Assembly: GCF_902143375.2 (NCBI RefSeq)
Contig: NZ_CABFVA020000065.1
Coordinates: 62,001-126,000, forward strand
DNA from: Methylacidimicrobium tartarophylax
Lineage (GTDB): Bacteria; Verrucomicrobiota; Verrucomicrobiia; Methylacidiphilales; Methylacidiphilaceae
DNA length: 64,000 bases
Direction: 5' to 3'
Under the pieces are notes generated by a model, which searched no databases, was not told the origin of the DNA, and worked only from the letters and a program-made list of their open reading frames with translations. Shown in pieces: positions 5,060 to 55,909 of the stretch. The translations under genes and the position numbers were made by a program. Each line of letters opens with the position of its first letter. Position 1 is the first letter of the stretch.

Positions 5060-5831
5060 GCTTACGGGAATTTCACGCTGCATGTCCCAGCATGGGCGGC
5101 AGATTGATGAATTCATGGAAGCGATCCTCTGGTTCTCGCTCATTCTTTTCGCGATCTGGTTCAGCTTTTTCGTCTATGCCCTCTATCGGTTCCGGGCGGA
5201 CAAGAGCCCGAAGGCCAGCTACGAGGGGCTCAAGGCGGATTGGCCCAAGCATTTGGAGTGGAGCATCGTTTTTGTGGAAATGGTGCTCCTCTTCGGGTTT
5301 TCGGTGCCGCTTTGGGGAAACCGGGTGCTTGATCCTCCTGGCCCGGGAGAAGCCGTGACGCTGGAAGCGGTCGCGCAGCAATTCGGCTGGATCTTCCACT
5401 ACCCGGGACCGGATGGCAGGTTGGGCCGCCGTGACATGCGCTTGGCGGACGGGATGAATCCGATCGGCCTCGACAAGACCGACCCGGCTTCCAAGGATGA
5501 CATCATCACGATGAACGAGATGCACGTGCCCGTCGGCAAACCCGTCTTAATTTATCTGGGGTCCCGGGACGTCGTTCATAATTACTACGTCATTCAGATG
5601 CGCATTCAGCGTGACGCAGTTCCCGGCCTGACCATTCCGGTCTGGTTCACGCCGACGCACACGGGCCGTTTCGAAATCGCCTGCGGCCAACTTTGCGGGG
5701 TCGGCCATTTTGCGATGAAAGGATTTCTCGTTGTCGATACCCAGAGCGACTACGAGGCTTGGCTCAAGGATATGAGTCAGCTTTCGCAGGTCGCACCACC
5801 GACCGGCGAGAAGGTCATCGCGCGGCAGTAA
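5040..5831 (+). CDS. ctaC: cytochrome c oxidase subunit II
   Basis: The 263-residue electron-entry subunit. It has two N-terminal membrane helices (about residues 26-48 and 75-98) and a periplasmic cupredoxin domain. The CuA ligands are complete: a His in HNYY near residue 180 and the motif CGQLCGVGHFAM near 215-226. There is no fused cytochrome c domain, so a separate cytochrome must donate electrons, perhaps the protein encoded at 293-940. The GTG start at 5040 has a GGGAGGG site; an ATG at 5082 is the alternative. The TAA stop coincides with the left edge of a palindromic repeat. Confidence 0.93.
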   Translation: MFALLLELTGISRCMSQHGRQIDEFMEAILWFSLILFAIWFSFFVYALYRFRADKSPKASYEGLKADWPKHLEWSIVFVEMVLLFGFSVPLWGNRVLDPPGPGEAVTLEAVAQQFGWIFHYPGPDGRLGRRDMRLADGMNPIGLDKTDPASKDDIITMNEMHVPVGKPVLIYLGSRDVVHNYYVIQMRIQRDAVPGLTIPVWFTPTHTGRFEIACGQLCGVGHFAMKGFLVVDTQSDYEAWLKDMSQLSQVAPPTGEKVIARQ

Positions 5832-6029
5832 CGTCTGCCTGTCTCAGAAGCGTTCTCCTACGGCTTACGAAGGGGAGTCGTCTGCTTCGTTGAGAAGACT
5901 TGGGTGTTTGGTCCTCGTTCGTGGGATGTCGTCATACCACTCCGGGGGAAAACCTGCGCCCCTTCTTGCATCCATGGCCATCCGCCCCGCGCCTCGAGTA
6001 CGTGGCCTTGTGGTGAGACAGGAAGGCTG
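5829..6029 (+). repeat. palindromic TA-bounded repeat, copy A (diverged)
   Basis: A diverged, about 200-bp member of the dispersed hairpin family. It starts at the TAA stop codon of ctaC. Its termini, CCTGTCTCA at 5838 and TGAGACAGG at 6014, are perfect inverted repeats but differ from the CCGCCATTTCTC ends of copies B, E and F. The core is recognisable (CTGCTTCGTTG, GTCGTCATACCACTCCGG, GAAAACCTGCGCC). The right edge shares its TG (degenerate TA) with copy B, which follows head to tail. No protein gene is supported here. Confidence 0.8.
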
Positions 6030-6211
6030 GCCGCCATTTCTCACAAGCTTTCTCCTGCGGCTTGCACAATGGGTTTGTCTGCTTCGTTGGGCTTGGTTTT
6101 CCATCCTTGCAGTATGTCGTCATACCACTCCGGTGGAAAACCTGCGCCGCGCCTTGCATCCAAGCCCATTTGCGGCGCCTCGGCTACGACATTTGCGACA
6201 AATGGCGGCTA
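6028..6211 (+). repeat. palindromic TA-bounded repeat, copy B (reference copy)
   Basis: A 184-bp element with ends CCGCCATTTCTCACAA (6031) and, at 6208 on the other arm, CCGCCATTTGTCGCAA, matching at 14 of 16 positions. Nested inverted repeats continue inward: GGTTTTCCA with TGGAAAACC and GTATG with CATAC around a TCGT loop, so the whole unit can fold into one long hairpin. The bounding dinucleotides are TG and TA. The 156 bp after it, up to the convergent lipoprotein gene, hold a run of eight G but nothing else I can name. Confidence 0.9.
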
Positions 6212-16210: not shown

Positions 16211-16393
16211 TAGCCTGCATATCTCGCAAGCGTTCTCCTGCGGCTTGCGAAATGTACCTGTCTGCTTCGTTGGGACTTGGTTTTCCCTCTCGCAGTATGT
16301 CGTCATACAACTTCAGGGAAAACCTGCGCCCCGCCTTGCATCCAGACCCATTCGCCGCGCCTCGGGTACGAACTTTGTGAGATATGCAGGCTA
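16211..16393 (+). repeat. palindromic TA-bounded repeat, copy C
   Basis: A 183-bp element. Its ends are TAGCCTGCATATCTC and the exact reverse complement GAGATATGCAGGCTA, both including the TA boundary. The inner stem is GGTTTTCCC with GGGAAAACC, and the tip is GTATG-TCGT-CATAC. Compared with copy B, both arms have changed together. The right arm contains the recJ start codon (ATG at 16384), so the first three recJ codons are element sequence. Confidence 0.9.
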
Positions 16394-18111
16394 GTCCTAT
16401 CTGGGAGATCGATTCTCCTGGGGAAGAAGCCGAAACCCTCGGACGGGAACTCGGCGTCTCTCCCTTGCTCGGGGGGCTTCTCGTGGAGCGAGGACATCGC
16501 GATCCGGAGGAGGCCTCCCGCTTCCTCAACCCCAAGCTGTCCGCACTGGAAGATCCTTTTCAGTTGAGCGGCTTGCGGCAGGCGGCCGAGCGGTTGCGGC
16601 AGGCCATTGTCGAAAGGCAGCGGATTCTGGTTTACGGCGATTACGACGTCGACGGAGTAAGCTCCACGGCTCTTTTGGTCCGAGCCCTCCGGTTGCTCGG
16701 GGCCTCGGCGTCGGCGTTCATTCCTGAGCGGGCATCGGAGGGCTACGGGCTCACTCGGAAGGGCCTGGAGCGGGCGTTCCGTCTTTTCTGCGAGGAGAGA
16801 GGGAATCATGACCCCGGGCAGAAACAGCTGCCCGATCTCGTGGTGGCCGTCGACTGCGGCACGACCTCGATCGAGGAGTTGTCTTGGCTCGCGGAGAAGG
16901 GCGTAGAGGCCATTGTCGTGGACCACCATCGGCCCGCCGGCTGCTGGCCACCGGCTTGCGCGATCCTCAACCCTCACCGGGACGGCCGGGGCAGCCATTT
17001 TGCGAGCGCGGGTCTTGTTTTTAAGCTGCTCCACGGGCTCCTCAAGCTGGAACCGGCCTATCGCGAGCGGCTGCGGCTACGGGAGGAACTGGATCTGGTT
17101 GCCCTGGGAACCATTGCCGATATCGTCCCGTTGACCGGTGACAATCGGATTTTCGTCGCCCGAGGCCTGGAGCAACTCGGCCGCCGCCGGTTGCCCGGTT
17201 TACGGGCACTGGCGAGTGTTTCGAAGATGGGCGAGAAGCCGACAGTGGAGGATGTCGCTTTTCGGCTTGCCCCTCGGCTCAATGCGAGCGGGAGGCTCGA
17301 CGACGCGATGGAATCGGTGCGCCTCCTTCTGACCGACTCGCCCACCGAAGCGGAGCAGGGCGCCCTTTCGTTGCATCGGAAGAACCTGCAACGACGGCTC
17401 GTCGAGCGGGAGATGCTCGAGGACGCTCTCGGTACCTTGGAGAAAGAGCCTGCGGTTTTCACCGGCGGGGCGATCGTGGTCGGAAAGAGGGGGTGGCATG
17501 CGGGAGTGGTAGGAATCGTGGCCTCGCGTCTCTTGCGCCGGTTTCACCGGCTGGTCGCCGTCGTCGCCTTTGATGAACGGGGAGAAGGGAAGGGGAGCGC
17601 ACGTGGGATTCCCGGGATGTCGATCGTGGAGGGGTTGCGGGCCAGTGCCGCTCACCTGGAGAAATTTGGCGGACACGATCTGGCGGCGGGCTTTTCCCTT
17701 CGAGAGGAAAACCTGTCTGCGTTTCGTGCGAGCTTGGTACAATGGGCGAGCCGCGCAGGCTCGCCGGAGATCTTCCGTAAACGGCTCAGAATCGCCGGGG
17801 AGCTTCCGCTCTCCGCGGCGGGCCTCCCGCTCTACGAGGAGTTGGAGCGGCTGGCCCCCTTCGGGGCGGGGAATGCCCGGCCGCTCTTCGCCTTTCCCAG
17901 CCTTTTCTTAGAGGGGGTGCCCATTCAAGCACGAGGGTGCACTCGGATCTCTCTTCGTTCCGGCGATGCCCGGCGCGAGGCCTTCGGGTTCGACCTCCCG
18001 GTGAACGGCGTGATCGCAGGCCGCTTTCAAATTGCGGGCCACCTCGACTGGGACTCGCTGGGCAAGCGGGTGCGGGTGCGGATCGTCGATTGGAGAGCGG
18101 AACAGGGTTAA
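16384..18111 (+). CDS. recJ: single-stranded-DNA exonuclease RecJ
   Basis: A 575-residue 5'-3' ssDNA exonuclease used in recombination and mismatch repair. DHH-family motifs are visible: VYGDYDVDGVSS near residue 81, VAVDCGTTS near 154, VDHHRP (DHH) near 179, and the DHHA1-type GGHDLAAGF near 430, followed by an OB fold. A TGA two codons upstream of the ATG limits the N-terminus, and the conserved SPIW region begins at residue 4, so translation must start at this ATG, which lies inside the right end of repeat copy C. No good ribosome site is seen. The TAA stop is the first codon of repeat copy D, so the gene is bracketed by two repeats. Confidence 0.92.
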   Translation: MQASPIWEIDSPGEEAETLGRELGVSPLLGGLLVERGHRDPEEASRFLNPKLSALEDPFQLSGLRQAAERLRQAIVERQRILVYGDYDVDGVSSTALLVRALRLLGASASAFIPERASEGYGLTRKGLERAFRLFCEERGNHDPGQKQLPDLVVAVDCGTTSIEELSWLAEKGVEAIVVDHHRPAGCWPPACAILNPHRDGRGSHFASAGLVFKLLHGLLKLEPAYRERLRLREELDLVALGTIADIVPLTGDNRIFVARGLEQLGRRRLPGLRALASVSKMGEKPTVEDVAFRLAPRLNASGRLDDAMESVRLLLTDSPTEAEQGALSLHRKNLQRRLVEREMLEDALGTLEKEPAVFTGGAIVVGKRGWHAGVVGIVASRLLRRFHRLVAVVAFDERGEGKGSARGIPGMSIVEGLRASAAHLEKFGGHDLAAGFSLREENLSAFRASLVQWASRAGSPEIFRKRLRIAGELPLSAAGLPLYEELERLAPFGAGNARPLFAFPSLFLEGVPIQARGCTRISLRSGDARREAFGFDLPVNGVIAGRFQIAGHLDWDSLGKRVRVRIVDWRAEQG

Positions 18112-18293
18112 CCGCTATTTCACACAAGCTTTCTCCTACGGCTTGCAAAATGGGCTTGTCTGCTTCGTTGGACTTGGTTTTCCATCCTTGGCAGTATGTC
18201 CTCATACAGCTCCGGTGGAAAACCGGCGCCGCGCCTCGCATCCAAGCCCATTTGCGGCGCCTCGGCTACGAAATTGGTGAGAAATGGCGGCTG
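18109..18293 (+). repeat. palindromic TA-bounded repeat, copy D
   Basis: A 185-bp element beginning at the TAA stop of recJ. The ends are TAACCGCTATTTCACACAA and TTGGTGAGAAATGGCGGC, imperfect inverted repeats. The inner stem GGTTTTCCA/TGGAAAACC and the tip GTATG-TCCT-CATAC are intact, and AAATGGGCTTG pairs with CAAGCCCATTT over 11 bp apart from one mismatch in the left arm. The right boundary is TG instead of TA. The remaining 83 bp before mqnA show no clear signal. Confidence 0.9.
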
Positions 18294-20196: not shown

Positions 20197-20202
20197 AGGG
20201 AC

Positions 20203-20245
20203 CATTTTGCAAGCCGTGGGAGAAAGCTTGTGAGAAATGGCGGTT
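20203..20245 (-). repeat. fragment of the palindromic repeat upstream of carB
   Basis: This stretch matches the last ~43 bp of copy E (GCAAGCCG, GGAGAAAGCTTGTGAG, AAATGGCGGTTA) with a TA boundary. The other half of the element is absent. It ends five bases before the carB start codon, so most of the short mqnC-carB spacer is element-derived. Confidence 0.75.
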
Positions 20246-23503: not shown

Positions 23504-24694
23504 GTGGCACGCCGGATCCCGGGGATCTCTCTCTCGGCTCTCCTGATTGGCGGTTACCTGGCCCTCGGACTTTACGTGGTCCTTCGCGGGTGGGCCGTCG
23601 TCCCTCCTTCCCCCTTCCCGCGGATCGGTTACCTCTGTCTCGCGGCCGCTTGTGTTTTCGGCTATCCCGCGGCACGGCGCTGGCAGGAGAGGAACCCCTC
23701 CCCGGTCGCGGATTGGGCTGTCCTCCTCTCCTCCCTCTGGATCCCTTCGGTGCTCTATCTTTTTCTCGGAATCTCCGCTTGGGACCTGCTGCAGCTCCTA
23801 CCGGGTGCGGCAAAGCTGGAGGAAAGCCTCCTTCCTCCCTGGGCTCCTCCGGTGGGCTTGATCGCTCTGGTCGTGCTCCTGCTCCTCCGAGGGACCGTCA
23901 ACGCGCGCCGGATCTTGGTCCAAGAGCTCGACCTTTTCCTCGATTCGTCCCCGCCTCCTTCTTCGTTTCTCCCTGGTCTGACGATCGCCGTCGCCGCCGA
24001 CCTCCATATTACCGGAACCTTTGGCGCAAGGAGACTCGCCCGCATCGCCAAGGCAATCCGGTCGACCTCGCCCGATCTCGTCCTGCTATCCGGAGATCTG
24101 GTCGATGCTTCCGCGCCCGTGCTGGAGAAGGCTGGCGTGGGGCCGCTCTTCCGCTCTCTTTCCGCTCCCTTGGGGGTCTTTGCGTGTCTGGGAAACCACG
24201 AGTACTATAGCGGTGCCGATGGGGCGGTTGCCTTTCTGGGCGAAAACGGGATTACCGTTCTGCGCGACCGGTGCGTGGAGGTCGGGGGCGTCCTCCGAAT
24301 CGCCGGCAGGGATGATCGAGCCAAAATGGTGCTGGGCGACGGTCGTCCACGCGAGCCGCTTCGTCGGCTCCTGGAAAAGAGCAATCCGCGCCTACCACTC
24401 TTGGTCCTAGACCATCGCCCCTCTGCGCTGGACGAAGCAGCCGATTGCGGCGCCGATCTCCTCGTCTGCGGCCATACCCATAACGGCCAGTTTTGGCCCA
24501 TCAACCATATCGTCTCCCGGCTCTACCCGCTTGCCTACGGCTATGCGCGCCGGGGGAAGACCCACATCGTCGTCACTCGCGGCGCCGGCACCTGGGGTCC
24601 TCCGATCCGCATTGGGCAGTGCTCGGAAATCTTCCGAATCACCCTTCACCTTGCTTCCGGGTCCATTTCGCCGGCTGCAGAAGAACGCTTGTGA
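23504..24694 (+). CDS. membrane-anchored metallophosphoesterase
   Basis: A 396-residue protein with four N-terminal membrane helices (first ~130 residues) followed by a calcineurin-type phosphoesterase domain. Metal-binding motifs run in order: ADLHITG near residue 166, LSGDLVD near 197, CLGNHEYY near 228 and CGHTHNGQ near 325. It resembles YaeI/YkuE-type enzymes; the substrate is unknown, perhaps UDP-diacylglucosamine-like lipids or phosphodiesters. The GTG start has a GGAGGG site. The last ~11 residues (GSISPAAEERL) and the stop lie in a repeat fragment and overlap the convergent hisA by 49 bp. Confidence 0.85.
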   Translation: MARRIPGISLSALLIGGYLALGLYVVLRGWAVVPPSPFPRIGYLCLAAACVFGYPAARRWQERNPSPVADWAVLLSSLWIPSVLYLFLGISAWDLLQLLPGAAKLEESLLPPWAPPVGLIALVVLLLLRGTVNARRILVQELDLFLDSSPPPSSFLPGLTIAVAADLHITGTFGARRLARIAKAIRSTSPDLVLLSGDLVDASAPVLEKAGVGPLFRSLSAPLGVFACLGNHEYYSGADGAVAFLGENGITVLRDRCVEVGGVLRIAGRDDRAKMVLGDGRPREPLRRLLEKSNPRLPLLVLDHRPSALDEAADCGADLLVCGHTHNGQFWPINHIVSRLYPLAYGYARRGKTHIVVTRGAGTWGPPIRIGQCSEIFRITLHLASGSISPAAEERL

Positions 24695-25437
24695 GACAGG
24701 CGGCTAAAAGACCCTTCTCCGCCGACCTCCGCCCGCCCATCGTGGAAGGAGACCGTCTTTTCGTAGATCGCGCGACCGAGGACCGCGCCGTAGAGCCGCG
24801 GGATCCGCTCCAGCGAGCGTAGATCTTCGGGCTTGCCGATCCCTCCGGAGGCAAAGATCGGGAGCGGGACGGTTTGGACCAGCTCCCGGGTTCTCTCCAG
24901 GTCCGGACCGGAGAGCATCCCATCGACCGAGACATCGGTGTAGAGAAGGAAACCGGCTCCCTGAGTCTGGGCGTGCCGGGCGGCATCGATCAGCTTCTTC
25001 CCCGTACCCCGCTCCCAGCCGGCGATCCGGACCTCCCCGTTACGGGCATCGAGGGCGACGACGATCCGCTCTGGTCCAACACGGGCGGCGAGCTTGGGAA
25101 GGAATTCGGGCTCTTCCCATGCGCGCGTTCCTATGACGACCCGGGAGGCTCCGCGTGCGAGGGCTTCTTCCACGGCTTCTTCGGTGCGGAGGCCTCCGCC
25201 GAGCTGGATGGGAATCCGGACTCGCTTTGCGATCGCCTCGACCCAGGGCAGAGAGGAAGAGGCGCCGGAGAATGCTCCCTCCAGGTCGACGATGTGCAGG
25301 CCGTCCGCCCCTTCCCTCTCCCAATGGAGGGCTGCCGCCACCGGATCGTCTGAATAGACGGTGGCGGACTCCCGTTTTCCTTGCCGGAGACGCACAACTT
25401 TGCCTCCGAGCAGGTCGATGGCGGCGAATAGTTTCAT
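24646..25437 (-). CDS. hisA: ProFAR isomerase HisA
   Basis: A 263-residue TIM-barrel isomerase of histidine synthesis converting ProFAR to PRFAR. The N-terminal MKLFAAIDLLGGKVVRLRQG holds the first catalytic Asp; YTDVSVDGMLSGPD holds the second; SGGIGKPEDL and GAVLGRAIYE complete the phosphate site. The protein is about 17 residues longer than usual: the tail after about residue 246 reads into a repeat fragment. It overlaps hisH by 4 bp and was probably translated with it. Confidence 0.93.
   Translation of the reverse strand: MKLFAAIDLLGGKVVRLRQGKRESATVYSDDPVAAALHWEREGADGLHIVDLEGAFSGASSSLPWVEAIAKRVRIPIQLGGGLRTEEAVEEALARGASRVVIGTRAWEEPEFLPKLAARVGPERIVVALDARNGEVRIAGWERGTGKKLIDAARHAQTQGAGFLLYTDVSVDGMLSGPDLERTRELVQTVPLPIFASGGIGKPEDLRSLERIPRLYGAVLGRAIYEKTVSFHDGRAEVGGEGSFSRLSHKRSSAAGEMDPEAR
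24660..24706 (-). repeat. repeat fragment coding on both strands
   Basis: The reverse complement of this 47-bp stretch, beginning TAGCCGCCTGTCTCACAAGC, matches the left ends of copies A and C (CCTGTCTCA as in A, AAGCGTTCT and GCGAAATG as in C). It encodes the C-terminal residues of the phosphoesterase on the plus strand and residues SRLSHKRSSAAG of HisA on the minus strand. The rest of the element is missing. Confidence 0.75.
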
Positions 25438-52302: not shown

Positions 52303-53412
52303 TCAGCGAAGGATCTTCTTGGGATCGACCGCCTTCCGGCCGAAGGCCTCGGCGACACCTGGGCAACTGACTTCGCCGCCGATGGTGTTGATTGCGGAGC
52401 AGAGGTCCGGATTGGTTTTCGCGGCGGCGGCGCCTGCCGAAGCGAGGATGAGGATCCAAGGGAGAGTCGCGTTCGTCAGCGCAATCGTGGAGGTTCGAGG
52501 GACAGCCGCGGGAATGTTGGTCACGGCATAATGGAGGATGCCGTCCACGGAAAAGACCGGATTGTCGTGGGTGGTGGGATGGGTCACGGTTTCGACGCAG
52601 CCGCCCTGATCGATGGAGATATCCATGACGACGGATCCTCGCCTCATTCGCTGAATGATTTGGCGGGAGAGCAACTTTGGTGCTCGAGCCCCCGGTACGA
52701 GGACCGCTCCGACCACGAGGTCCGCACGCTGGAACTCCTCTTCCAGATAATAGGGGGTGACGACCGCAGTTCGGATACGGCCTCCAAAGAGATCGTCGAG
52801 AAATCGCAGACGAACGGCGTTCTGATCGAAAAGGAGAACTTCTGCTCCCATGCCCGAAGCGATCCGCGCCGCCTGCGTGCCCACCGTGCCGCCTCCGACA
52901 ATGATGACTCGCCCGGGCGGGACGCCGGGCACCCCGCCGAGCAGGATCCCGGACCCCCCTTGCGCATTTTCCAGGAAGTGCGCTCCGGCTTGGACGGCAA
53001 CCCTTCCCGCGACCTCGCTCATGGGAATGAGCAGGGGTAGGCTCCCGTCGGGAAGCTGCAAGGTCTCGTAAGCGAGTGCGGTGACTTCTTGGGAGACAAG
53101 GGCTTCCGTCAATGACCGAGTGGCGGCCAGATGGAGGTAGGAAAAGAGAAGGAGACCTTTACGAAAAAACGGGATCTCCGACTCGATGGGCTCTTTAACC
53201 TTTACGACGAGCTCCGAGAGCCAGCAGCTTTCCCAATCGCCGATTTTTGCCCCCGCTCGGTTGTACTCCGCATCGGAGAAGCCGCTCGAGAGCCCCGCTT
53301 CCGTTTCGACCGTCACCGCGTGACCGGCCTGCACGAGCGCGTGAGCGCCGGCAGGCGTCAGGGCCACTCGATTTTCTCCTTGTTTCCGTTCCTTTGGGAC
53401 GCCGATACGCAT
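52303..53412 (-). CDS. ald: alanine dehydrogenase
   Basis: A 369-residue NAD-dependent enzyme interconverting alanine and pyruvate plus ammonia. It has the N-terminal MRIGVPKERKQGENRVALTP, the substrate residues around SYLHLAA (His), the dinucleotide motif VIIVGGGTVGTQAARIA and VMDISIDQGGCVETVTHPT. The length is standard. It is monocistronic on the minus strand and divergent from the flavin reductase gene. Confidence 0.96.
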   Translation of the reverse strand: MRIGVPKERKQGENRVALTPAGAHALVQAGHAVTVETEAGLSSGFSDAEYNRAGAKIGDWESCWLSELVVKVKEPIESEIPFFRKGLLLFSYLHLAATRSLTEALVSQEVTALAYETLQLPDGSLPLLIPMSEVAGRVAVQAGAHFLENAQGGSGILLGGVPGVPPGRVIIVGGGTVGTQAARIASGMGAEVLLFDQNAVRLRFLDDLFGGRIRTAVVTPYYLEEEFQRADLVVGAVLVPGARAPKLLSRQIIQRMRRGSVVMDISIDQGGCVETVTHPTTHDNPVFSVDGILHYAVTNIPAAVPRTSTIALTNATLPWILILASAGAAAAKTNPDLCSAINTIGGEVSCPGVAEAFGRKAVDPKKILR

Positions 53413-53557
53413 GGTTGCGGTCCTTTCGATTGAGGGCAACAAAGCAGTGCGGTCGTCTGCCGACAAGTCTTTTTGCCGATTTTCCCTTGAGAGAAGGGCC
53501 GGGCTTGGGAAGCTTGGCTTGCCTTTCCGCAAAGAACTCCCTCACGATAACCGTGCC

Positions 53558-54106
53558 GTGATTGCGATCTTGATCGGAACGAATCGATTGGGAAGCCGGA
53601 CGAGGCTCGTTGGGGCCCAGTTGGTCCGTCTCTATCACGAACTGGGAGAGGAAGCTCGTCCGATCGACCTCGGACTCCTACCGATCGAGGTCGGCAGCCC
53701 GCGTGCTTACGCCGACAGGCCGGCGGAAGTGAGCCGGTTTGCCGCGCTTTTGGGAGAGGCACGGGGTATTGTCGTCGTTCTTCCGGAATACAATGGGAGC
53801 TTTCCGGGCATCCTGAAGCTCTTTCTGGATCTTTTGCCGCATCCCAGCCCTTTGGAAGGCAAGCCGATCTGCCTGGTGGGCGCGGCGAGCGGCCGCTTCG
53901 GCGGCCTGCGAGCCGTCGAGCAGATGCAGAATCATCTGCTCTACCGCAGATCCCATCCCTACCCCTATTCCGTTCTGCTTTCGGACGTCGAGATGCTGCT
54001 GGCAAAAACTGCGAGGATCGAAGATCCCGCGACGATCAAACGGCTGCGCGCGCAGGCGGAAGGATTTTTGGGCTTCGTAGCGAGCCTTGCCCCGGAAAAA
54101 GGTTAG
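53558..54106 (+). CDS. NADPH-dependent FMN reductase family protein
   Basis: A flavodoxin-fold protein of about 182 residues. The phosphate loop GTNRLGSRTR near the N-terminus and the flavin site LPEYNGSFPGILKLFLDLL are characteristic. The reading frame is open further upstream to 53411, overlapping the ald start, but conservation begins at VIAILIGTNR, so the GTG at 53558 is preferred. The TAG stop is the first three bases of repeat copy E. Possible substrates are quinones, chromate or azo compounds, as in relatives. Confidence 0.82.
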   Translation: MIAILIGTNRLGSRTRLVGAQLVRLYHELGEEARPIDLGLLPIEVGSPRAYADRPAEVSRFAALLGEARGIVVVLPEYNGSFPGILKLFLDLLPHPSPLEGKPICLVGAASGRFGGLRAVEQMQNHLLYRRSHPYPYSVLLSDVEMLLAKTARIEDPATIKRLRAQAEGFLGFVASLAPEKG

Positions 54107-54287
54107 CCGCCATTTCTCGCAAATTTCGTAGCCGAGGCGCCGCAAATGGGCTTGGATGCGAGACGTGGCGCAGGTTTTCCCCCGGAGTTGTATGACGACA
54201 TACTGCGAGGAGGGAGAACCAAGCCCAACGAAGCAGGCAAGCCCGTTGTGCAAGCCGCAGGAGAAAGCTTGTGAGAAATGGCGGCTA
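54104..54287 (-). repeat. palindromic TA-bounded repeat, copy E
   Basis: A 184-bp element in inverted orientation. The termini TAGCCGCCATTTCTCGCAA and TTGTGAGAAATGGCGGCTA match at 18 of 19 positions as inverted repeats. The terminal TAG on each strand is the stop codon of a different gene: the flavin reductase on the plus strand (54104-54106) and glgA on the minus strand (54287-54285). The inner stem GGTTTTCCC/GGGAGAACC has one mismatch, and the tip is GTATG-ACGA-CATAC. Confidence 0.92.
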
Positions 54288-55718
54288 CCCCGGCCTGCCG
54301 AGTAGTCGCTGGTAGATCTCTTCGTAGGCCGCTGCGCTTCGGTCCCAGGAAAACTCTTGGCGCATCGCCTCCTGGCGCATCGCTTGGAGAGAGGGAGGGT
54401 CGCGATAGACTGCTTTTGCCCGCTGAACGGCCTCGGCAAAGGCGCTTACGACAGGAGCCTGGAAGAGAAACCCCGTTCCTTGTCCCGTAGCCGGATCCCA
54501 GGAGGCAACGGTATCCGCCAACCCTCCGGTTTCGCGGGCGATCGGAAGAGTTCCGTAACGTAGGGCGTAGAGTTGGGTGAGGCCGCACGGCTCGAAGAGG
54601 GAGGGCATGAGCAGGAAGTCGGCGCCGGCCAGGAGAAGGCGGGCAAAAGCCTCGTCGAATCCGATCTGGACCGCGATGCTCTTCGGAAACTCTCGGGCCA
54701 AGCCCAGCAGGCTCTCCTGCAAATAGGGATCGCCTTCTCCCAGCACGACGAGGCGGCCTTCTTCCTTCCGGATCTCGTCGATGATTTCGATCAGAAGCGG
54801 AATCCCTTTTTGCGCGGTGAGCCGGGAGATCACGCAAAAGAGGGGAGCGCCGGACGGCTCCCACCCGACCTGCTTGGCAACCAGATCCTTGGAGAGCTGC
54901 TTGGCGCCCGTGTTGTGCTCGGAATAGGGGGCGGGCAAAGCAGGGTCGCTGCGTGGATCCCATCGGCTGTAATCGGCGCCGTTGAGGATTCCGGAAAGCT
55001 TGTATCTTCTTTCGCGCAGGACCTCGGCGAGCCCGCAGCCGAACTCGGGCGTTTGTATTTCCCGGGCATAGCGCGGACTCACGGTAGTCAGCCGGTCGGA
55101 AAAGACGATCGCCGCCTTCAGGCAGTTGATGTGCTGGTGAAACTCGATTCCGGCGGGAGAAAAGTAGTCGGACGGCAGATTGGTCAAGGGAAAATCCAAA
55201 CCCCAAAAGTTGCCCTGGTAGGCGAGGTTGTGAATCGTGAAAAGCGTCCGGAAAGGGAGGCGTCCGGCGCGAACGAACGCGGGAGCCAGGCCGGTGTGCC
55301 AATCGTGGAGATGAAGAATCTCCGGCGTCGGCCGCACGTGGGGAGCGAGCAGCGGAATGATTTTCGAGAAGAAAAAGAAGCGGCTGGCATTATCCGTGTA
55401 ATCCTTACCCGGAGGACCATAAAGATAGGTCCGGTCGAAGAACTCGTCCTTTTCGACGAGGAAAAGGCGAATCTCCCGGTCGGTCCGACCTTCCCAGATG
55501 CGGGCGCTCTGCAGGCCAGGACCCAAGGGGGCGTGAAGGACGAGGTCGGTGGGCCTTAGCTCCGGGATGGTTTCACGGATCGACCGGAAGAGAGGGAGCA
55601 CGCAGGCAACGGAGTGCCCTCGCCGGCGCAGGGCAACGGGGAGGGCGGCCAGCACATCGGCAAGTCCGCCCGTCTTTGCATAGGGGGAAAGCTCGGTTGC
55701 GGCAAAGAGGAGATTCAT
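54285..55718 (-). CDS. glgA: glycogen (starch) synthase
   Basis: A 477-residue GT5 enzyme extending alpha-1,4-glucan from ADP-glucose. The N-terminal FAATELSPYAKTGGLADV carries the KTGGL motif, LHDWHTGLAPAF is conserved, and the C-terminal PSLFEPCGLTQLYALRYG holds the EX7E residues. It fits with the GH57 enzymes for glycogen metabolism. The stop codon is supplied by repeat copy E, and repeat copy F starts 8 bp upstream of the start codon, so this gene is bracketed by repeats. No ribosome site is evident in the remaining 7 bp. Confidence 0.95.
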   Translation of the reverse strand: MNLLFAATELSPYAKTGGLADVLAALPVALRRRGHSVACVLPLFRSIRETIPELRPTDLVLHAPLGPGLQSARIWEGRTDREIRLFLVEKDEFFDRTYLYGPPGKDYTDNASRFFFFSKIIPLLAPHVRPTPEILHLHDWHTGLAPAFVRAGRLPFRTLFTIHNLAYQGNFWGLDFPLTNLPSDYFSPAGIEFHQHINCLKAAIVFSDRLTTVSPRYAREIQTPEFGCGLAEVLRERRYKLSGILNGADYSRWDPRSDPALPAPYSEHNTGAKQLSKDLVAKQVGWEPSGAPLFCVISRLTAQKGIPLLIEIIDEIRKEEGRLVVLGEGDPYLQESLLGLAREFPKSIAVQIGFDEAFARLLLAGADFLLMPSLFEPCGLTQLYALRYGTLPIARETGGLADTVASWDPATGQGTGFLFQAPVVSAFAEAVQRAKAVYRDPPSLQAMRQEAMRQEFSWDRSAAAYEEIYQRLLGRPG

Positions 55719-55725
55719 TCGGGCT

Positions 55726-55909
55726 TAACCGCCATTTCCCACAAGCTTTCTCCTGCGGCTTGCACAATGGGCTTGTCTGCTTTGTTGGGCTTGGTTTTCC
55801 ATCCTTGCAGTATGTCCTCATACAGCCCCGGTGGAAAACCGGCGCCGCGCCTCGCATCCAAACCCATTTGCGGCGCCTCGGCCACGAAATTTGTGCGAAA
55901 TGGCGGTTA
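55726..55909 (+). repeat. palindromic TA-bounded repeat, copy F
   Basis: A 184-bp element with ends TAACCGCCATTTCCCACAA and TTGTGCGAAATGGCGGTTA (18 of 19 paired). The boundary is TAA on both arms, whereas copies C and E have TAG on both arms. The inner stem GGTTTTCCA/TGGAAAACC and tip GTATG-TCCT-CATAC are intact. The next 232 bp up to phoH are gene-free; an imperfect TTGCAC and TAGGCT pair (55961 and 55984) is the only promoter-like signal I see there. Confidence 0.92.

Follow-up and report, generated by a model that had tools for sequence, protein, structure and literature searches.

A MITE that duplicates its YTAR target lies between the stop codons of two convergent genes in Methylacidimicrobium

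Two convergent genes of the methane-oxidising bacterium Methylacidimicrobium tartarophylax, encoding a flavin reductase and a glycogen synthase, end exactly at the two edges of one short repeated element, copy E. The locus belongs to a stretch of 64,000 nucleotides that was analysed as a whole and is referred to here as the window. How can one insertion lie flush with two stop codons, and are these stops provided by the element? The features concerned are the following.

53411..54106, plus strand: NADPH-dependent FMN reductase, 231 aa, 4-10 aa shorter than its relatives
54103..54106, no strand: left target-duplication copy at E, TTAG; its TAG is the reductase stop, and the empty site in the relative G002 is a single TTAG
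54107..54284, plus strand: MITE copy E, 178 bp, ends CCGCCATTTCTCGCAA...TTGTGAGAAATGGCGG
54285..54288, no strand: right target-duplication copy at E; it now reads CTAC, in which CTA forms the glgA stop (minus-strand TAG)
54285..55718, minus strand: glgA, glycogen/starch synthase, 477 aa; relatives are 2 aa longer or 3 aa shorter

The two stops lie where the original prediction placed them: the reductase stop (TAG, 54104-54106) abuts the first element base at 54107, and the glgA stop, read as CTA on the plus strand (54285-54287), abuts the last one at 54284. Its further claim, that the element supplies these codons, is not borne out. Copy E is very probably a 178-bp MITE that inserted into a YTAR site and duplicated it, the double stop having existed beforehand, and its mobiliser is most likely an IS1380-family transposase.

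The element and its target site

The element is a MITE, a non-autonomous transposon of 178 bp that forms a hairpin. It is short, has no transposase ORF, carries terminal inverted repeats and is present in many copies; in addition, its target site is duplicated (4-bp YTAR) and empty sites occur in relatives. Copy E with its flanking bases (54104-54287) folds as a single long hairpin (-97.7 kcal/mol, z -9.3). A search of the window against Rfam at the gathering score returned a tRNA as the sole match, and the element matched no RNA family. Copy number is about 40 in this genome, with at least 41 matches at E <= 0.001 (40 of 127 candidates scored), and about 40 in the sister genome G006, where at least 40 copies were counted. 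Few copies are found in the remaining genomes of the genus, G003 excepted, and no element match was seen in 23 relatives outside the genus.

Many copies in G006 are near-identical and therefore recent, while those of M. tartarophylax are older. The G006 copies display the same 4-mer on both sides, outside CGGCCATTTCTCACAA...TTGTGAGAAATGGCCG. Identical flanking 4-mers (outside CGGCC...GGCCG) were found in 34 of the 47 two-ended copies, namely CTAG in 20, TTAA in six, TTAG in four, and CTAA, TTCA, TCAA and ATAG in one each; identical pairs are kept in 3 of 32 copies in M. tartarophylax. The target is thus YTAR (C/T-TA-A/G) and the duplication is 4 bp long. The element was originally proposed to begin with R after a target TA. 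Its true ends are CCGCC and CGGCC, and the neighbouring TA and R belong to the target, TAR and YTA being parts of the YTAR duplication. At copy E the flanking 4-mers are unlike, TTAG versus CTAC, with a mismatch at two of four bases, and the right duplication appears to have changed by point mutation from TTAG to CTAC. Two G006 copies (L072 and L102) have a common left flank and different right flanks; that flank was therefore itself duplicated or recombined.

Each of the sequences CTAG, TTAA, TTAG and CTAA contains TAA or TAG on both strands. If the 3' ends of two convergent genes overlap within one YTAR, that single site serves as both stops, and a MITE that inserts there and duplicates the 4 bp leaves either gene with a stop of its own next to the element. 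Both genes would then end exactly at the edges of copy E without using an element codon, because the shared YTAR was duplicated. As a stop triplet can be read from either strand of YTAR, the element is often found flush with gene ends, and inserting into a YTAR common to two convergent genes is silent for both. The stop must predate the insertion, because before that event the 4-mer on the gene's side was already joined to the gene: an in-frame TAR in the duplicated target was already a stop. The element copies existing stops and does not supply new ones. This mechanism is drawn from sequence comparison, no transposition event having been observed.

Element edges and stop codons in two genomes

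Besides copy E, the window contains further copies of the element.

5834..6022, minus strand: old MITE copy after ctaC; the ctaC stop (5829-5831) is 2 nt from the aligned edge
6031..6208, minus strand: MITE copy adjoining the ctaC-side copy at 5834..6022, flanks CTGG/CTAG
16214..16390, minus strand: copy B, a MITE of the CCTGCAT subfamily at the recJ 5' end, flanks TTAG/CTAG; it carries the ATG now used by recJ
18112..18290, minus strand: MITE copy after recJ; its left flank TTAA holds the recJ stop
20202..20243, plus strand: MITE fragment, right end only, flank TTAG
55729..55906, minus strand: MITE copy upstream of glgA, flanks TTAA/TTAG; neither edge at a stop

Two more genes, recJ and ctaC, had been listed as ending exactly at an element edge. 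The recJ ORF (16384-18111) does so, its TAA at 18109-18111 abutting the copy at 18112-18290. The TAA of ctaC ends at 5831, 2 nt short of the homology-defined edge at 5834, and occupies the same codon in G001 and G004. Three of the four edge stops are therefore exact. The accompanying claim, that such stops exceed the random intergenic expectation, stands: of the edges that face a gene, 20 of 60 in G006 and 11 of 39 in M. tartarophylax fall exactly at a stop, versus 0.3-0.4% of all gene-sparing positions.

The choice of null is decisive for how this excess is read. With genes called computationally by a home-made Markov gene caller, and a null based on 255 kb of M. tartarophylax and 200 kb of G006 plus the loci around copies, stops account for 8-9% of gene-sparing TAs in G006 and 12% in M. 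tartarophylax, and for about one fifth of gene-sparing YTARs (21% and 20%, respectively). Copies lie at stops in 16 of 42 cases in G006 and 8 of 24 in M. tartarophylax, which corresponds to a pooled odds ratio of 2.1 against the YTAR null (p 0.03). The excess predicted over the TA expectation near gene ends is thus largely gone once YTAR is taken as the null (about 20% versus 33-38%), and the odds ratio of about 2 that is left is marginal. Most of the stop enrichment is explained by target choice and gene avoidance. Double-stop shared YTARs also occur naturally, at 3 of 131 gene-sparing YTAR sites in G006.

Divergent sites can never be stops. Between convergent genes the stop share of the null is 12/28 (43%) versus 10/18 (56%) for copies in G006, and 11/28 (39%) versus 2/5 (40%) in M. 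tartarophylax. We attribute the remaining twofold excess to purifying selection that removes insertions from genes and promoters; it matches the outcome expected if promoter damage is selected against, and a weak targeting bias is also possible. Alternatively, copies in convergent gaps may have been kept because their hairpin terminates transcription from both sides or forms an RNA-stabilising end. The hairpin is indeed very stable, and G006 copies favour convergent gaps (18/42 versus 28/120, p 0.03). Selection against promoter damage, however, also predicts convergent enrichment, as read for pneumococcal repeats (PMC3049150), and copy E is absent from five relatives; retention as a terminator is therefore improbable. 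Slightly more doubtful still is the idea that the YTAR preference is a stop-codon-targeting strategy, with insertion biased to gene ends beyond sequence availability. If true, a gene-end bias (e.g. via transcription or terminator structure) would represent a built-in safe site for the element.

Orthologous gene ends and empty sites

In G002, the closest relative in which the E locus was found, the site is empty, and the reductase TAG and the glgA TAA overlap tail to tail as one TTAG. The element is likewise absent from this locus in G001, G004, G005 and G006, where the two stops are about 8-10 nt apart; the 83%-complete G003 assembly gave no match to the reductase or glgA. When the joined flanks of 21 stop-edge copies were compared with five relatives (3217 of 4058 bases, the last three pieces being left out), several junctions aligned gap-free; they contain one 4-mer, and the stop stays in register. 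These empty junctions away from E read TTAG in G005 and G001, CTAG in G003 and G002, GTAG in G002 and TTAG in G003, bearing in mind that some G003 comparators may carry the same insertion, since the element at G003 C223 adjoins the orthologue of the L168 gene.

Protein ends, which the original prediction had proposed to compare with homologues, use the same stop codon in 32 of 44 orthologue comparisons covering 14 stop edges, and general truncation is not observed. The ends that do not match are those of recJ versus G001 and G005 (+9) and of both genes at E, the reductase being 4-10 codons shorter than that of every relative and glgA falling 2 codons short of its G002 counterpart and exceeding the remaining four by 3. 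These length differences therefore point to small indels near the E junction, which may have preceded or followed the insertion. Copy E is the one place compared where small indels have evidently occurred as well.

Could the element nevertheless create stops, by inserting inside coding sequences and truncating genes at a TAR encoded at its edge? The shortened reductase would fit, as would a gene (23504-24694) that ends within an element fragment. This explanation is very unlikely, since a duplicated in-frame 4-bp YTAR was already a stop before insertion, the stop is conserved in 32 of the 44 orthologue comparisons and is in place at empty junctions, and 12 of the 14 stop edges compared contradict it, the remaining two being those of E. 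Stop creation by truncation is ruled out as a general explanation by the orthologue stops. Of the original statement that insertion creates or keeps a stop, only the keeping is retained.

The gene at 23504-24694 terminates within an element fragment (window 24640-24710), and its last codons and TGA are element-derived, unlike those of its relatives. At recJ (window 16214-16420), copy B has taken the place of the original 5' end, for which relatives have an in-frame upstream ATG (MGEAET.../MDEA...). Upstream of the conserved IWEI motif, the sole start seen in M. tartarophylax is the ATG in the end of copy B (ATG CAG GCT AGT). The element appears to supply a start codon to recJ, a better version of the earlier idea that it supplies stops. 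The element ATG is open in frame at 6 of 32 nearby outward edges, which is not above chance.

A candidate mobiliser and comparison with known systems

A 1.71-kb IS is present in G006 in about ten near-full copies; its ends are CCCCCATTTCTCACCA, it is flanked by CTAG, TTAG or ATAG, and its transposase belongs to the IS1380 family (NF033539 equivalog, 369 bits; Pfam DDE_Tnp_1_4); one IS1380-family copy with an intact reading frame is present in M. tartarophylax (G000 C52). The 16-bp ends of this IS and of the MITE (CCGCCATTTCTCACAA) are alike at about 14 of 16 terminal bases. Both ends and duplication are thus held in common with an IS1380-family IS of the same genome, which suggests that an IS1380-family element mobilises the MITE in trans. 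An IS5-family origin, first guessed from the YTAR target, was dropped as the IS with matching ends is of the IS1380 family. A MITE of IS630/Tc1-mariner type with a 2-bp TA duplication, as originally assumed from the TA present at nearly all edges of window copies, can practically be discarded: the duplications are 4 bp long and include the bases flanking TA (CTAG...CTAG; TTAG...TTAG), the minor duplications TCAA and TTCA lack TA, and the family of the matching IS is again a different one.

Three further arrangements involve IS1380 elements. At three G006 loci (L043, L105 and L113) an IS1380 element directly adjoins a MITE, with one CTAG in common, and element edges therefore themselves serve as targets. 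A second, 176-bp element (G006 L114 1803-1979) has a right end equal to the IS1380 left end and is probably a distinct derivative formed by internal deletion. Four IS1380 copies in G005 C1 (e.g. 872224-875851) are split at IS position 524/525 by about 2-4 kb, which suggests a compound element that carries additional DNA.

The target sequence of a transposon can thus by itself mimic the writing of stop codons. From this follows a simple rule for gene-end annotation beside elements of this kind, together with the caution that the coincidence of an edge and a stop should not be taken as function. In the literature searched, neither this element nor insertion into YTAR at a stop codon was described, and there was nothing relevant on IS1380 elements with CTAG/TTAG target duplications.

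Closely comparable are IS1380-family elements: within the genus, their autonomous copies resemble the MITE in the 16-bp ends and make 4-bp duplications of the same YTAR type. The MITE, by contrast, has no transposase ORF, and beyond its ends its sequence is not recognisably that of the IS. For IS1247, another member of the family, the duplication is given as 5 bp (PMC3281130). IS1380 transposases are the prokaryotic outgroup for the TTAA-targeting piggyBac (PMC10813416), a connection that would fit the target of the MITE and is considered a lead only. The piggyBac target is likewise of the 4-bp TTAA type, but piggyBac is eukaryotic and the MITE accepts several YTAR sites, TTAA among them. Correia (NEMIS) elements differ from the Methylacidimicrobium MITE in target, ends and host. 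They and other bacterial MITEs resemble it in being non-autonomous, in having terminal inverted repeats and in being parasitic on an IS transposase (PMC2229807). The pneumococcal repeats RUP, BOX and SPRITE are also small hairpin repeats enriched between convergent genes, RUP and SPRITE favouring convergent gaps, and 36 genes have their stop codon encoded by BOX, with truncation not strongly evidenced (PMC3049150). Their sequence is unrelated and their target different; moreover, the BOX stop lies inside the repeat, whereas the stop at the MITE edge lies in the duplicated target.
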